Source: an archaeon
GTDB taxonomy: Archaea > Thermoproteota > Nitrososphaeria > Nitrososphaerales > Gagatemarchaeaceae
DNA: 64,000 bases
Direction of reading: 5' to 3'
Assembly: GCA_016432545.1 (NCBI GenBank)
Contig: CP066694.1
Location: forward strand, 372,001 to 436,000
Of this stretch, positions 13,959-26,922 are shown piece by piece; the first letter of the stretch is position 1; each line of letters opens with the position of its first letter. The notes beneath the pieces were generated by a model. It ran no database searches. It saw only the letters and a list, made by a program, of their open reading frames with translations, and was not told where the DNA came from. A program made the translations under genes and the position numbers.

Positions 13959-16265
13959 TTAACTTGTCGAGAGTCGGAAGGCCTTCCATTCCCCGGGAGC
14001 GAGGGTCGCCTCGAAGCTCATGGCGGGCAGGACCCTGACAGAGCCCACCCTGGACCAGGAGCCTTTCGCTGAGTCGAAGGCTTCGAGGGAAGCCGACAAA
14101 TGCCTCGTCAGGTCTTGGGCCCTGGGAGAGAACCTGACTGTGACGCGCGCCTGCGTGGGCGAGGAGCTCCCGAGGCAGATGACCTGTCCTGGACCGTAGA
14201 AGGTCATGGCAGTCACTCCCCTGGCGGGGGATGGGAGCGGATCAGACTTCGCGAATCTTGTCCCTGACTTGCAAGTCGCCTTGGAGGCTGCCAGGAAGAC
14301 CGCAGGCTGGCCCTGGCCCCTCCCTACGAACAGGCTGACCGGCTCTCCCGCCCAGAGCCGACTGGCGAGCGCCCAGCTGATGCCCGAGGCGGGCGGGGGA
14401 GCGAAGAAGGCCCCGTCCGGCCCGAAGGAGAGGCCCACTTCGCCTTCGAGGAGGGCCTCAGCAAACCTGGACGCGGCGACGGGGTCGGAGCCGTCCCCGT
14501 GAGACTGGCCGGCCTCGACGTCCACCCAATAGGGGAACTCTCCGGGTGAGCCGCCCAGCCTGAGGTAGTCCTCTGTAACGAGCTTCGCAGTCCTCTGCAC
14601 GGCGAGGCTTCCGATTCCAGAGAGGCCAGTCCTGTAGCAGACGACCGCGTGGGCAAGGGCAGCGCGGGTCCAAAAGCCACCAAGCTGTCCGTGGCCGTAA
14701 GAAGCATCGAAGTAGACCTGGTTGGAGGTCGGCACCGTCCTGGGACCGAACGGGGTCTCGAAGTCCTTCTCCATGGCCCTGTGGGCTGCGGCCTGGGCTC
14801 CGAAGGCTGGAGCCCTGTAGGCAGCGACGGCCATGTCGATGCACTCGTCGGCTCTCAGCCGCCCCGACGGGTCGAGGCAGAGCGCGAGGAATCCCCTTTC
14901 GTCCACCAGCGTCTTCTTGACCTTGTCGGCAATCATCTCTGACCTCTCCCTGAACTTGCCGGCGTCGTCTGATCTGCCGAGGCTCCGCGCCGACTGCGAT
15001 GCGGCCAATAGGGCCCCTGACACTGCGAGAGTCACCTCAGGCACCTCACCTGTGGGATATCCTCTGCCGAGATGTCTTCGCCAGCCGTTCGCGACGCTGG
15101 GGTCGCACTTGACAGAATAGCCTTTGGAGACGGCCATGAGGAAGCCTGCGGCCTTCTTGATCGCCGGGTAGACGGGTCTCGAGGCCTTCCGGTCCTGAGC
15201 CTGGAGCACTTGAGCGCAGAGCGCCTGAAGCAGTAGGGAAGTCTCAAGGATGCCGCTCCGAGCCCTATCGTCGGAGTGAGGCACCGAGCCTTCCCTCCCA
15301 AGAGCTCTCTTGAAGGACCCGGAGAGAGTGGCCCCCGCTTCCCGGTCGACCACTCCGACCGCTCTCCCTACCTCGTATCTGTCCAGGTCGTAGTCGATGG
15401 CCTCGGGCGAGTCGAGCGCCGAGAGCGCCCACTGGAAGGCATCAGAGACCTGCTGGCTTGAGCACGCGAACTCCGCTCGGGCGGGGGGCCCGGAGGTCTC
15501 CCCCGCCTGGATGCTGCCGAAGTCCCTGAGCGCGTCCTCGAGCCTGGCGGGGTTGTACAGGAAGGCGAAGAGTATCTCCTTCGCCTCGCCGGGCTGGAGC
15601 TCGAGGTCGTGGAGAGAGAGGATCAGGACCTGTCCGGAAGCCCCTGCGGTCGAGTCCGGGAGCTCGCCTGCGGAGGCGGCGTCAAGCGCCCCCGTCTTGT
15701 CGGAAGTCATGTAGTACCTGGACGGTTGAGGGACGGCCCCTACCACTCGGGCTGCCGGGGGGTCCGCGAGCTCGTCCATGGCCACGTGACTTCCCCGGTT
15801 GAAGGCGTTGAGGCCGATCGCGCCCCATCCGTAGGCTCCTCCCCCAAGCTTGGCGCAGGTCGGGTCAGCCAAGTCCACGACCCTGAGCTTCAGGGCCGTC
15901 TGGGCGAGGCTCTTGAGCCTCAGCTTCCTCAGGTATCCGGACCCTGCCACGAAGAAGGTGACGGACTGGAGGACCTCGACAGAATCGAAGAGCCTGGCCG
16001 CGAATTGCGAACCGGCTGGAGAGACGCGCAGCGACCAGTCTAGTCTCTGGGGTTGGACGACCACGCCGGCCTGGAGCTTGAAGATTCGCAGACCCTCGTA
16101 GCCGAAGAGCGCCCTCCTCTCTCTCCTCGAGTCGAACGAGAGCATGGACCCGTCGGGGGCGAGCGTCGCCCTGCAGCCGCCGAAGCTCAACGAGACGGGA
16201 GAACGGAGGTACGACGAGCGCACGCTCCCCTGTTGACCCGGAAGGGCCTCGACCGCTGAGGTCAT
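13959..16265 (-). CDS. Six-hairpin glycosidase-like protein
   Basis: This 768-residue protein lacks a signal peptide. The N-terminal third (to ~270) looks like a beta-sandwich; residues ~280-650 have repeated amphipathic helices consistent with an (alpha/alpha)6 barrel. The segment YFDASYGHGQLGGFWTRAAL and the acidic stretches around YDLDRYEVGRAVG and GQSHGDGSD resemble amylo-alpha-glucosidase/GH15-type enzymes. A short beta domain ends the protein. It may trim an intracellular or surface polysaccharide, but substrate and even catalytic activity are inferred. ATG start with a CATATTATC TATA element at about 16288-16296. The flippase-like gene downstream makes a glycan role attractive. Confidence 0.5.
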   Translation of the reverse strand: MTSAVEALPGQQGSVRSSYLRSPVSLSFGGCRATLAPDGSMLSFDSRRERRALFGYEGLRIFKLQAGVVVQPQRLDWSLRVSPAGSQFAARLFDSVEVLQSVTFFVAGSGYLRKLRLKSLAQTALKLRVVDLADPTCAKLGGGAYGWGAIGLNAFNRGSHVAMDELADPPAARVVGAVPQPSRYYMTSDKTGALDAASAGELPDSTAGASGQVLILSLHDLELQPGEAKEILFAFLYNPARLEDALRDFGSIQAGETSGPPARAEFACSSQQVSDAFQWALSALDSPEAIDYDLDRYEVGRAVGVVDREAGATLSGSFKRALGREGSVPHSDDRARSGILETSLLLQALCAQVLQAQDRKASRPVYPAIKKAAGFLMAVSKGYSVKCDPSVANGWRRHLGRGYPTGEVPEVTLAVSGALLAASQSARSLGRSDDAGKFRERSEMIADKVKKTLVDERGFLALCLDPSGRLRADECIDMAVAAYRAPAFGAQAAAHRAMEKDFETPFGPRTVPTSNQVYFDASYGHGQLGGFWTRAALAHAVVCYRTGLSGIGSLAVQRTAKLVTEDYLRLGGSPGEFPYWVDVEAGQSHGDGSDPVAASRFAEALLEGEVGLSFGPDGAFFAPPPASGISWALASRLWAGEPVSLFVGRGQGQPAVFLAASKATCKSGTRFAKSDPLPSPARGVTAMTFYGPGQVICLGSSSPTQARVTVRFSPRAQDLTRHLSASLEAFDSAKGSWSRVGSVRVLPAMSFEATLAPGEWKAFRLSTS

Positions 16266-21503: not shown

Positions 21504-23879
21504 CTATAGCAGATAGAACAGGGGGAAGACAAAACACCACACGATGTCGACGAAGGCCCAGTAGAGCCCGAAGTTCTCGATCGCTTCGTGGGAGTCCTTT
21601 GAGTAGGTCCCCATGGCCGTCTTTTTCATGAGGTAGGCCATGACGAGCAGTCCGGCAGTCACGTGGGCGCCGTGGAGCCCGACGATGATGTAGTACGCGC
21701 TGGCAGCCAGCGAAGTTGTCGGGTCGGTCAAGACGAAGCCCGAGGCCCCAAGGTTGACCCACTCAGACACCTTGACCCCCATGAAGACCGCGCCAAGGAC
21801 GAAGGTGAGTCCCATCCATCCGAGGGACCGCCTCACATCGCCGCCGCGAATTGATTGCAAAGCCAGGAACATCGTCAAGCCGCTCGTGACTAGGACGAGG
21901 GTGTTGAAGGTCCCAAGGGGGACTTCGTGGATGGTTCCAGCGGCCGGCCAGGCTGGAGCGGCGGCGCGAATGAAGATGTACGCTCCAAGGAAGCTCCCGA
22001 AGAGGACCACCTCGGATGACAGGAAGACCCACATCCCGAGCTTCATCTTGGGGATCGCTGCGAAGGGCCACCTGTCACCGACCGGCTCGGCGGGGATCAC
22101 GAACTTGCCACGGAGGTCATCCCTCCCCCAGCCCCAGAAAGAGTACACGACTATGGCCGCCCCGACGAGCAGCAGTGGCAGCCCGGCAAGACCCGGGTAG
22201 AAGGCGGCTCCGATCAGGAAGACCAGCGCCCCTAGGGAGAGCTGGATGGGCCTGGAGCTCAAGTGGCCGTAGTGCCCCTCTCCCGCGACGAGAGAGTGAG
22301 AGGCTGCCGGCGAGGAGGCTGAGAGCTGCCCAATCCATCCCGCCGATGGGGCGGCGCCCTCGGCCGCAGGGGTCAGTCCCTCAACGTGCGAGGTCCATTC
22401 GAGGTCAGGCGAACCCCACGGGTTGGCCGGAGCGACTGGACCCCTGAACCAGGTGTAGAGCAGGTTGGCAGCCAGCAGTATCTGAGCTCCGGCAAAGACG
22501 AACGCCCCAACCGACGCTATCGCGTTGAGGATGGACAAGTCGCCGACGTTCTGGTAGGTGAAGTATCGCCTCGGCATGTCGTAGAGGAAGTTCATTGGGA
22601 AGTAGAGGACATTGAAACCTACGAACGAGATTACAAAGTGCCACTTGCCGAGTTTCTCGTTGTACATCCGTCCGGTCATCCGCGGAAGCCAATAGTAGAT
22701 CCCTCCGATAATCCCAAAGATCGCCGCACCTACCATCACGTAATGGAAGTGGGACACCACGAAGTATGAGCCCCTGAAGACTCTGTCCAAAACTGGGGAA
22801 GAGAGGAAGACTCCCGTAATCCCTCCAATGATGAAGAGTATCACTCCCCCAAGGGCGAAAAGCATCGGAGTCGCGAACTTGACCCTCCCCCTGATCAAAG
22901 ACTCGACGAACGATAGGGTAATCACGTCAAACGGAATCGATATCGCTATAGTTGCGATACTGAACGCTCCTTGAAGCGACACTGGAATTCCAGTGAGGAA
23001 CATGTGGTGCATCCAGACTCCGAAGCTTAGGGGGATGACGACAAGGCCCGTCGCAACCAGAATCGCGTTTCTGGCGGCGAGGGGGCGCCCTGTGAAACTC
23101 GGCAGAATGTTCGCAATGATCCCGAAGCCGGGGAGCAGGACGATGTACACCTCTGGGTGACCGAAGAACCAGAAGAGGTTGTCCCAAAGCAGGGAGGGTT
23201 GGATGCCTGTAGAAGTGAAGAAGACTGTACCAAAGATTCTATCCGCCGAGGCTAGGACGAAAGCCGCGATCAGGGTAGGGAAGGCGAAGAGCATCGCAAT
23301 GATTGTGAACAGCATGAACCAGGTGAACATCGGCAGCCTGGAGAGTGTCATGCTTGGGGCCCTAAGCCAGATAATCGAGACCATGAAATTCACGCTGCCC
23401 AGTGTCACCGAGACCGCGAGGAGGACCATCCCCAAGTATGCAAGGGTCGGCCCCGTACCCTGTGAAAGGACAGCGAGCGGCTGATAGGTCGTCCACCCGG
23501 CATCAGCCGTCCCCCCGGGGACGAAGAAGCTCAGAACCGCGAGGACCCCCCCTGCCAAGTAAAGCCAATAGCTCATTGCGTTGAGTCGCGGGAATGCAAG
23601 GTCAGCCGCGCCAATCTGGAGAGGGACGAAGTAGTTGGCCAGCCCCAGCGCGACCGGGGAGAGGAACCAGAAGATCATGATTAGCCCGTGCATGGTGAAG
23701 GCCTGGTTGTAGTAGGCCGACGAGAGGAAGGTGTTGTCAGGGACCGAGAGTTGAACCCTCATGAGCATAGCGAGGATGGCTCCTATGAACCCGAAGTAGA
23801 GGGAGGTGAAAAAGTAGAGAATCCCCACATCTTTGTGGTTGGTCGTGTACAGCCAGCGGCTAATCCACCACTGGACCAT
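21504..23879 (-). CDS. coxAC: Cytochrome c oxidase subunits I and III, fused
   Basis: This 791-residue fusion starts at the ATG reading MVQWWISRWLYTTNHKDVG; the longer open frame upstream overlaps coxB and is not coding. Residues ~1-540 are subunit I: heme and copper ligands in FTMHGLIMIFW, FGHPEVYIVLLPG (CuB His, Tyr, and the Glu typical of A1-type oxidases), WMHHMFLTG, and FVVSHFHYVMVG. After a linker, residues ~570-791 are subunit III with its seven helices, ending VWCFVFPLFYLL. It is the proton-pumping oxygen reductase core. Fused I/III subunits are known from Thermus caa3 and Sulfolobus SoxM. Confidence 0.96.
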   Translation of the reverse strand: MVQWWISRWLYTTNHKDVGILYFFTSLYFGFIGAILAMLMRVQLSVPDNTFLSSAYYNQAFTMHGLIMIFWFLSPVALGLANYFVPLQIGAADLAFPRLNAMSYWLYLAGGVLAVLSFFVPGGTADAGWTTYQPLAVLSQGTGPTLAYLGMVLLAVSVTLGSVNFMVSIIWLRAPSMTLSRLPMFTWFMLFTIIAMLFAFPTLIAAFVLASADRIFGTVFFTSTGIQPSLLWDNLFWFFGHPEVYIVLLPGFGIIANILPSFTGRPLAARNAILVATGLVVIPLSFGVWMHHMFLTGIPVSLQGAFSIATIAISIPFDVITLSFVESLIRGRVKFATPMLFALGGVILFIIGGITGVFLSSPVLDRVFRGSYFVVSHFHYVMVGAAIFGIIGGIYYWLPRMTGRMYNEKLGKWHFVISFVGFNVLYFPMNFLYDMPRRYFTYQNVGDLSILNAIASVGAFVFAGAQILLAANLLYTWFRGPVAPANPWGSPDLEWTSHVEGLTPAAEGAAPSAGWIGQLSASSPAASHSLVAGEGHYGHLSSRPIQLSLGALVFLIGAAFYPGLAGLPLLLVGAAIVVYSFWGWGRDDLRGKFVIPAEPVGDRWPFAAIPKMKLGMWVFLSSEVVLFGSFLGAYIFIRAAAPAWPAAGTIHEVPLGTFNTLVLVTSGLTMFLALQSIRGGDVRRSLGWMGLTFVLGAVFMGVKVSEWVNLGASGFVLTDPTTSLAASAYYIIVGLHGAHVTAGLLVMAYLMKKTAMGTYSKDSHEAIENFGLYWAFVDIVWCFVFPLFYLL

Positions 23880-23881
23880 CT

Positions 23882-24526
23882 TTAGTGCCCCTGCCAGGCG
23901 TCCCAGGCACCTTGGCTGACGACGGTGAGGTTGGCGAACATCTTGGCGTGCCCGAAGCCGCAGAACTCGAAGCACCGGATGGCGTTCTTGTAGAAGCCGG
24001 GGTCGGGCACCATGAACCAGAGCTGGTTGGTCTTCCCTCCTATGGCGTCCTCCTTCACAGCAAGAACGTTGATACCGAAAGTGTGGAAGACATCCTTCGT
24101 AGTGACGTTGAGCAGGATTATCTTGCCTGCCGGGACCGTAAGGTTGTTCGACACAGACCTGCCGTTGGGGTAGGTGAAGCTCCATCCCCACTGATAGGCG
24201 CTGACCTGGATCTGTACGCACTGATTGGGCGTCTGCGTGCAGGCAGCGGGGATCTCAATGTTGCCAAAGGCCGCGAATGTTTGATATTCGGCGGCGCTGA
24301 GCACGGAGATGCTGATCAGCACAGTGACGAGGACAATCTTCCAGCCCTCGGTCTTGTGCTCGAGCGGAGGTTCCTGATCTCCCCTCGACCTGTACCTGAT
24401 CATGAAGAAGGCCAGCATCGCAATCACTACGACTGCGGCCCCCGTCCCGAAGAACACATACCAGTTTAGCAGGAAGTCGAAGGTGGCGGTGGTTGGAGGG
24501 GTGGTCGAAAGCAGACCCTGAAGCAT
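23882..24526 (-). CDS. coxB: Cytochrome c oxidase subunit II with CuA site
   Basis: This 214-residue protein has two N-terminal membrane helices (~20-45 and ~62-80) and an external cupredoxin domain. The CuA ligands are complete: His in DVFHTFGINV and the C-terminal CFEFCGFGHAKM (C-x-E-x-C-x3-H-x2-M). It accepts electrons and passes them to subunit I. It is the first gene of the operon, 2 bp before coxAC, with a TATA box about 35 bp upstream of its ATG. Confidence 0.95.
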   Translation of the reverse strand: MLQGLLSTTPPTTATFDFLLNWYVFFGTGAAVVVIAMLAFFMIRYRSRGDQEPPLEHKTEGWKIVLVTVLISISVLSAAEYQTFAAFGNIEIPAACTQTPNQCVQIQVSAYQWGWSFTYPNGRSVSNNLTVPAGKIILLNVTTKDVFHTFGINVLAVKEDAIGGKTNQLWFMVPDPGFYKNAIRCFEFCGFGHAKMFANLTVVSQGAWDAWQGH

Positions 24527-24625: not shown

Positions 24626-24635
24626 GCATAATTAG
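24626..24635 (+). promoter_or_regulatory. TATA box for tRNA-Cys
   Basis: GCATAATTAG is centred about 29 bp before the first base of tRNA-Cys, the usual distance for an archaeal tRNA promoter. Confidence 0.55.
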
Positions 24636-24695
24636 CTCGAGTAGTCGAGGCACTTTTGCGGTGGGTTGGCGGAGCGGTTACGCGCGCGCCTGCAG

Positions 24696-24710
24696 TGATA
24701 CCCGTCAGTG
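24696..24710 (+). other. First intron of tRNA-Cys (canonical 37/38)
   Basis: These 15 nt, TGATACCCGTCAGTG, lie directly after the purine following the anticodon. They contain the 9-mer ACCCGTCAG also found in the tRNA-Val intron. Confidence 0.75.
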
Positions 24711-24732
24711 AGCGCGTTCACGTGGGTCCGAG

Positions 24733-24764
24733 AGCGCAAGGGAGGGATTCCCTTTCGCTGGGAG
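24733..24764 (+). other. Second intron of tRNA-Cys, in the T loop
   Basis: This 32-nt insertion can form AGCG/CGCT and AAGGGA/TCCCTT stems around a GGGA loop. The exact junction can slide by up to three bases because GAG occurs at both borders. T-loop introns require splicing endonucleases with broad specificity. Confidence 0.7.
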
Positions 24765-24792
24765 TCCCACACCCACCTTCTCTTCTGGGCGC

Positions 24793-26922
24793 CTAGACGA
24801 ACAGGGCGGTGAGGACTATCGACGAGACGAAGACTATCGATATCGTGTTGACCACCTTGATTAGAGAGTTGATCGCCGGGCCGGCCGTGTCCTTGAATGG
24901 GTCTCCCACTGTGTCGCCCATCACCGCAGCTTTGTGCGCGTCCGACCCCTTCCCTCCGAACTGGCCCGTCTCGATATACTTCTTGGCGTTGTCCCATGCT
25001 GCCCCGCCGTTGGTCATCAGGAAAGCTAGGAAGACGCCGGACACTACGCTACCTATGAGGAGCCCTCCGAGCGCCAGGGGGCCCAGCACGAAGCCGACCA
25101 CCAGGGGGGTTCCGACGGCGAGCGCCCCCGGCTTGGCGAGCTCCCGGATCGCTGCTGAAGTGCTGATGTCTACGCACTTCGCGTAGTCGGGCTTGGCGGT
25201 GCCCTCCATGATCCCGGGGATCTCCTTGAATTGGCGCCTCACCTCGTTGACGATGGTGAATGCAGCTCTCCCGACCGCCTTGATCAGGAAGCTCGAAAAG
25301 TAGAACGGGAGGAGGCCCCCGATCAGGAGCCCGACGATTACGTAAGGGTCCGAGAGGGAGAAGACGAGCTGTCCGTTCACGAAGTGCGCCGAGTACCTGC
25401 TTACCACCGCTGCCCCTCCAGCCTTTATCACATTGCTGACTTCGTTTTGGAACGCCTCGAAGATGGCCACGGCAGCGAGGGCCGCCGAAGTGACGGCGAA
25501 GGCCTTCGTGGTCGCCTTGGTCGTGTTGCCGATCGCGTCCAGCTCGTCTGTGACTGCCCGGACCGAGGCGTCCAGCCCTGCCATCTCCACTATCCCGTTT
25601 GCGTTGTCGGTGATAGGGCCGAATGAGTCGATCGACATGATGACGCCGGTGAGAGAGAGCATCGACATGGTAGCGACGGCCGTGCTGTAGATGCCGGTAA
25701 GCTGGTCGCCGCCGGAGGCTTCGAAACCGATGAAGTACGAGACAAGTATCGCGACTACGAGGACCAGGGCTGAGGGGGCGGTGCTCGTGAGGCCCGTGGA
25801 GAATCCTGACAGGAAGTTGGTGGCGGCGCCGGTCTTGCTCGACTCGGCGATCTCCCTGACCGGCGAGTACGCGTAGGAGGTGTAGTAGTTTGCCACATTC
25901 TCGATGGCGACGACCACTATGACTCCCACTCCTGCACTGGCGAACAGATAGGTACCGAGCGTGGAGTTCTGGAAGAGGGCCTGACCCAGGAAGTAGTCAA
26001 GCAGTATCGCGACGGCCGCCGCTATCAGAAGAGTGACGTTGAGGGCCCGGAGAGGGTTTGACTTGATAGACTTTCTGACGTAGAAGCTCGCCACGATGGC
26101 GCCTATGATGCCCGAAGAACCTAGGACGAGGGGGTAGAGGAGGAGAGAAGCGGAGCCACCCTTTGACAAGAGCAAGGCGCCCAGGATCATGACGGCTATG
26201 GCAGTAACGACGTAGGATTCGTAGACATCCGCGCCCATGCCCGCGCAATCGCCGACGTTGTCCCCCACGTTGTCCGCGATGACGGCCGGGTTTCGAGGGT
26301 CGTCCTCAGGGATCCCGGCCTCGACCTTGCCTACGAGGTCTGCTCCGACGTCTGCCGCCTTGGTGTAGATTCCGCCCGAGACTCTCATGAACATAGCGAT
26401 GAGCGACGCTCCGAAGCCAAGACCTGCGAGGGTTGCAGGCTGCGTAACGATCGTGGAAGAGAAGAGGACATAGTATGCCGAGAGTCCTAGGAGGTCAAGG
26501 CCCACGACCGTCATCCCCATCACTCCTCCGCCCTTGAAAGACAGGGCCAGTGCGCTTCCGAGGCCCTGCTTTGCCGCTTCGGCGGTCCTTGAGCTGGTCC
26601 TTACTGTGACCGCCATCCCGACGTATCCAGCGATTGCTGAGAGGACGGCGCCCAGGGCGAACCCGGCGGCGGTCGCTCCGCCAGTGCGGGCGGGGAGGTC
26701 GATCAGACCGAAGATCAGTACGACTATGACCACAGCTATGGGCGCGATCACTTTGTACTCCCTTCCGAGGAAGGCGGCGGCACCCTGCCTGACCGCCTCT
26801 GCGATCTCGGTCATCTTGGCTGAACCCTTTGGTTGCCTTCTCAGGTACGCCCAGAGGATTCCGGCATAGAGTAGCGCGATGAATGAGACGCCTAAGGCGA
26901 TGATTGCGTAGTCCAGCGCCAA
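24793..26922 (-). CDS. hppA: Membrane H+-translocating pyrophosphatase, K+-independent
   Basis: This 709-residue membrane protein has about 16 helices. Hallmarks are the substrate motif DVGADLVGKVE, then DDPRNPAVIADNVGDNVGDCAGMGAD, and C-terminal DNAKKYIE. The segment AIGNTTKATTKAFA has Lys at the position where K+-dependent enzymes have Ala, so it should be the K+-independent, proton-pumping type. It couples PPi hydrolysis to proton export. I chose TTG at 26920-26922: homology begins there (ALDYAIIALGVSF) and a TATA box sits 28-30 bp upstream. The longer open frame to 27327 runs over the dys gene and is not coding. Confidence 0.95.
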   Translation of the reverse strand: MALDYAIIALGVSFIALLYAGILWAYLRRQPKGSAKMTEIAEAVRQGAAAFLGREYKVIAPIAVVIVVLIFGLIDLPARTGGATAAGFALGAVLSAIAGYVGMAVTVRTSSRTAEAAKQGLGSALALSFKGGGVMGMTVVGLDLLGLSAYYVLFSSTIVTQPATLAGLGFGASLIAMFMRVSGGIYTKAADVGADLVGKVEAGIPEDDPRNPAVIADNVGDNVGDCAGMGADVYESYVVTAIAVMILGALLLSKGGSASLLLYPLVLGSSGIIGAIVASFYVRKSIKSNPLRALNVTLLIAAAVAILLDYFLGQALFQNSTLGTYLFASAGVGVIVVVAIENVANYYTSYAYSPVREIAESSKTGAATNFLSGFSTGLTSTAPSALVLVVAILVSYFIGFEASGGDQLTGIYSTAVATMSMLSLTGVIMSIDSFGPITDNANGIVEMAGLDASVRAVTDELDAIGNTTKATTKAFAVTSAALAAVAIFEAFQNEVSNVIKAGGAAVVSRYSAHFVNGQLVFSLSDPYVIVGLLIGGLLPFYFSSFLIKAVGRAAFTIVNEVRRQFKEIPGIMEGTAKPDYAKCVDISTSAAIRELAKPGALAVGTPLVVGFVLGPLALGGLLIGSVVSGVFLAFLMTNGGAAWDNAKKYIETGQFGGKGSDAHKAAVMGDTVGDPFKDTAGPAINSLIKVVNTISIVFVSSIVLTALFV

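Follow-up and report, generated by a model that had tools for sequence, protein, structure and literature searches.

A tRNA-Cys(GCA) gene with introns at 37/38 and in the T loop, and the variable presence of the T-loop intron within a genus of Gagatemarchaeaceae

The stretch of DNA analyzed here (the window; 64,000 nucleotides of contig CP066694.1 from a member of the Gagatemarchaeaceae) very probably carries a working tRNA-Cys(GCA) gene of archaeal type, apparently present in a single copy, that is interrupted by two bulge-helix-bulge (BHB) introns and is predicted to be spliced by an (alpha beta)2 endonuclease. The gene occupies exactly positions 24660 to 24778 of the plus strand, from G1 at 24660 to the discriminator base U73 at 24778. 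Its acceptor stem (GGTGGGT/ACCCACC), 3-bp D stem, anticodon stem (CGCGC/GCGCG), and T stem (GTGGG/CCCAC) form a cloverleaf that is broken twice, by 15 nt past position 37 and by 32 nt inside the T loop, as the original prediction had described. On the plus strand, exon 1 (24660 to 24695) comprises the acceptor 5' strand, the D arm, and the anticodon 5' half to G37; intron 1 (TGATACCCGTCAGTG; 24696 to 24710) lies at 37/38; exon 2 (24711 to 24732) runs from A38 through the anticodon 3' strand, the variable loop, and the T stem 5' strand to T-loop positions 54 to 59; intron 2 (24733 to 24764), with the hairpin AGCGCAAGGGAGGGATTCCCTTTCGCTGGGAG, lies at 59/60; and exon 3 (24765 to 24778) supplies U60, the 3' strands of the T and acceptor stems, and U73. 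The expectation that both introns must be removed to give a foldable tRNA also held: their removal leaves a 72-nt tRNA with 0/72 mismatches to the gene of congener G042, which has no T-loop intron. Since all three exon blocks equal those of this independent genome, the structure is not a product of chance. A multi-intron tRNA outside the Thermoproteales had been anticipated as well, and the host lineage is indeed the Nitrososphaerales (Thaumarchaeota).

Neither ARAGORN at default settings nor the Rfam tRNA model detects the gene, and a simple anticodon pattern search returned only chance-level matches. A covariance model of the mature tRNA-Cys that we built for this analysis, with the spliced sequence of the window gene itself in the training set, matched the gene with 75.6 bits (E value, 8.7e-15), 30 bits above any other site in the genome; the runner-up, at 45.8 bits, is a tRNA-Arg(GCG). 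The genome consists of one contig and is rated 100% complete. Neither BLAST nor the covariance model nor the unassigned Rfam matches revealed a second tRNA-Cys, which the original prediction had named as the observation that would make this gene a pseudogene. The readable weaker matches of the covariance model and the unassigned Rfam matches have other anticodons or no recognizable GCA; the model might still overlook a tRNA-Cys whose introns differ from these, although it did find the window gene.

The surroundings of the gene are also conserved. A TATA-like box, GCATAATTA (24626 to 24634, plus strand), occurs once in the window, about 26 to 34 bases upstream of the tRNA, and the same or a near-identical box is found at equal distance in most of 21 congeners, suggesting that it serves as the promoter. 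Downstream, on the opposite strand, lies a gene for an H+-pumping pyrophosphatase (24793 to 26898, minus strand; Pfam H_PPase, 833 bits, with the C-terminal 701 amino acids searched). Because 20 of the 21 congeners have this gene no more than about 1.2 kb away from tRNA-Cys, we regard the tRNA-Cys genes as orthologous by position. A contig scan with the pyrophosphatase as query returned mostly bacteria, along with one congener contig (L030, identical to the contig in G024) and a single archaeal metagenome-assembled genome, in which tRNA-Cys was undetectable.

A BLAST search of the genus, covering 31 genomes, recovered one tRNA-Cys each in 21. An intron of 15 to 17 nt is present at 37/38 in every one of them. 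The T-loop intron is found in 13 species, with lengths of 20 to 33 nt and mostly diverged sequences, and is absent in the other eight, which have an ordinary 7-nt T loop. Splicing yields a 72-nt tRNA in all 21 cases (in G018, the 15-nt anticodon intron was placed by hand), and a second pair of species, G002 with the T-loop intron and G043 without it, likewise shares one spliced tRNA-Cys. Three relatives from other families of the order (G035, G037, and G039) have no T-loop intron in tRNA-Cys. In the gene of one of them (G037, L130), the D loop holds a 20-nt insert and 37/38 is uninterrupted.

The same comparison places the T-loop junction. Within the window alone, this junction can slide by 3 bases without changing the spliced product, so that 56/57, 57/58, and 58/59 would serve as well as 59/60, and 56/57 is likewise a known archaeal intron position. 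(For intron 1, a one-base shift leaves the product unchanged.) In other species, the choice does matter. A junction at 58/59 would give the T loop TCCGAGT in G002 and TCCGACT in G003, G009, G021, and G023, loops at odds with those of relatives that lack the intron; 59/60 gives TCCGAAT or TCCGAGT, with TCCGAAT in G002. The 3-nt bulges and 4-bp helix, too, come into register at 59/60. We therefore consider the three alternative positions very unlikely and place the junction at 59/60 on the strength of the species pairs G000 (the window genome)/G042 and G002/G043, because only there does G002 yield the T loop seen in G043, its relative without the intron.

With the junction at 59/60, the predicted splice motif of the T-loop intron is a near-textbook BHB: a 4-bp central helix, UCCG/UGGG, flanked by two 3-nt bulges (AG^A and AG^U). 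Two of the four central pairs in the window are G-U pairs. Across the 13 species, all four pairs form in seven and three of the four in six, and the introns of several relatives fold directly to the textbook motif. Over 12 distinct introns, the helix between exon positions 54 to 57 and the intron has 43 of 48 possible pairs (shuffle mean, 22.3; maximum, 36), and the intron-side helix has 51 pairs (shuffle mean, 8.4; maximum, 27); the shuffles (20,000 trials) ignore kinship, although most of these introns have strongly divergent sequences. The 37/38 intron presents a different picture. It follows the anticodon after a single base and pairs with bases of the anticodon loop: CUG at positions 32 to 34 pairs with C[AG]G of the intron (CUG/CAG in the window) in all 21 congeners, two of which rely on a G-U wobble. 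Only these three pairs are conserved, with no conserved inner helix, which falls short of a strict 4-bp BHB motif with an intron-side helix. RNAfold favors a different fold for the 37/38 loop taken in isolation, and the three-pair motif there rests on comparison. We thus read 37/38 as a relaxed site resembling a bulge-helix-loop. The original prediction had supposed that T-loop introns need relaxed BHB recognition; the motifs point the other way around.

Two further readings must be weighed against that of a functional, spliced gene. The first is that the T-loop hairpin is never excised and forms part of a working tRNA-Cys whose T loop is enlarged. The insertion does fold as a stable hairpin, and yet eight congeners have an ordinary 7-nt T loop in an identical or near-identical tRNA, the insert varies in length among the other species, and conservation falls on the exon-intron splice helix rather than on the hairpin sequence, so we give this reading scarcely any credence. 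The second, a decayed pseudogene with a random T-loop insertion while another gene supplies tRNA-Cys, could draw on the failure of the tRNA finders and on the fact that a 32-nt T-loop insertion would ruin an ordinary bacterial tRNA, but it is extremely improbable because the exons are identical to an intact gene in a separate species, the T-loop intron recurs in 13 species with its helix conserved, the TATA-like box is kept, no other tRNA-Cys was found in the genome, and a splicing endonuclease is encoded.

Determining the type of that endonuclease had been suggested as a check, and the genome points to a heteromeric enzyme: it encodes two PF01974 proteins, of 185 and 201 amino acids. The 185-amino-acid subunit resembles crenarchaeal catalytic subunits (Aeropyrum 3p1z; E value, 6e-42) and carries Y122, H130, and K161, the Tyr-His-Lys triad. 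Its loop K40-P41-K42, of the Crenarchaea type and invariant in 19 congeners, aligns with K44-P45-R46 of the Aeropyrum protein. The 201-amino-acid subunit is degenerate and has no catalytic His. The enzyme is thus predicted to be of the (alpha beta)2 type, which has been linked to noncanonical introns (PMC4090602, PMC6379350), and a Lys-(Pro/Val)-(Lys/Arg) loop motif has been tied to broad specificity (PMC12397907). Once transcribed, the precursor would most likely be cut by this endonuclease at two sites, a relaxed bulge-helix-loop at 37/38 and a near-strict BHB at 59/60, and the exons would then be joined by an archaeal tRNA ligase to give the 72-nt tRNA. The 59/60 intron would, on this model, be a dispensable insertion that appears and vanishes from one species to another, leaving the sequence of the mature tRNA intact.

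On a species tree of the 21 species built from three proteins, the distribution of the 59/60 intron demands at least six changes, and the well-supported branches alone force three. In one case, G004 (C33, L126), the intron is missing while the close relatives G008, G022, and G024 have similar ones, and its absence would most simply be a loss. The tRNA body of G004 is identical to that of the distant G001, with an upstream region like that of its own sisters. The intron-minus gene of G018 (C167, L127) follows the same pattern, with the tRNA body of the distant G041 and an upstream region resembling that of its sisters. The latter pattern hints at short-tract exchange, which we treat as a lead, given that the tRNA is short and the G018 assembly is fragmented. 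It is conceivable, if rather doubtful, that the 59/60 intron of tRNA-Cys has been repeatedly gained and lost with the mature tRNA unchanged, partly by short-tract exchange between species, with UCCG as the landing site. If so, the conserved T-loop UCCG would be a ready-made target, where any insert ending in a CGGA-like sequence forms a BHB motif.

A second T-loop intron occurs in the same genome. The tRNA-Thr(GGU) gene (L026; G000:C1:1078965-1079054) has its own 16-nt intron at 59/60, with the helix UCCG/CGGA; G042 has a different one there, and G002, G014, G041, G006, and G043 have none. Compared by eye, the Cys and Thr introns gave no sign of being linked by transposition. The mature T stem of this tRNA-Thr retains an A-C mismatch (GTGAG/CCCAC), as do those of G002, G014, and G041.

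Several elements of this case are already described for archaea, namely, position 59/60, multiple introns per tRNA, and the (alpha beta)2 enzyme type. Position 59/60 is among the catalogued noncanonical intron sites (Marck and Grosjean; Sugahara and colleagues; reviewed in PMC4090602), and the catalogued examples match ours in position, BHB motif, short length, co-occurring 37/38 intron, and alpha2-beta2 endonuclease hosts; the particular tRNA and lineage, with intron-minus genes in sister species, set our case apart. The same phylum contributed the 107 noncanonical Thaumarchaeota tRNA introns modeled in tRNAscan-SE 2.0 (PMC8450103). In Caldiarchaeum, the tRNA-Thr(GGU) gene occurs with and without an extra noncanonical intron in close relatives (PMC3293823), and is thus, like tRNA-Cys here, one and the same tRNA polymorphic for an intron. 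However, the Caldiarchaeum introns are at 24/25 and 45/46 and are accompanied by a mobile element, whereas ours is at 59/60 in several species, and the window locus shows no sign of a mobile element. The Thermoproteales, in which multi-intron tRNAs are accompanied by intron transposition (Fujishima 2010, cited in PMC4090602), are similar in having several introns per tRNA and rapid turnover but differ in that, in our case, the 59/60 introns of tRNA-Cys and tRNA-Thr share no similar sequence. What is new is the record of presence and absence, with its minimum of six changes among 21 species, together with the second 59/60 intron in tRNA-Thr(GGU).

Other features of the genome agree with its placement. 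A GC content of 60% and a fusion of cytochrome oxidase subunits I and III (coxA-coxC, with COX1 and COX3 domains; 21504 to 24221, minus strand) match reports for the Gagatemarchaeaceae (PMC10640624); a COX2 gene (23882 to 24526) adjoins the fusion. Because archaeal amoA occurs within the order (in 4 of 16 relatives outside the genus) but in none of the genus genomes searched, we take the host, a soil-type archaeon, to be a non-ammonia-oxidizing member of the Nitrososphaerales. With respect to other tRNAs, the Rfam model recovered 27 genes, 25 of them over the cutoff, and many tRNAs of this genome are probably intron bearing and missed. Within the window, a tRNA resembling Val(CAC) (L023; 131 to 223, minus strand) has an intron on the 5' side of its anticodon. 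Another tRNA gene, L022, resembles Val(TAC) and seemingly has two introns; CCCGTCAG is common to the introns of both and to the 37/38 intron of tRNA-Cys. Further tRNA genes (L229, L231, L232, and L233) have apparent D-arm introns plus an anticodon intron. An ARAGORN call of tRNA-Ser(ACT) at 15269 to 15359 (minus strand), unsupported by the Rfam model, is probably spurious.

The case shows why standard tRNA finders overlook essential genes in such genomes. The natural species pairs, in which the same mature tRNA-Cys is encoded with and without the T-loop intron, can serve as exact controls when splicing and modification are tested. Together with the second 59/60 intron, in tRNA-Thr, they make the gain and loss of archaeal tRNA introns measurable in this genus.
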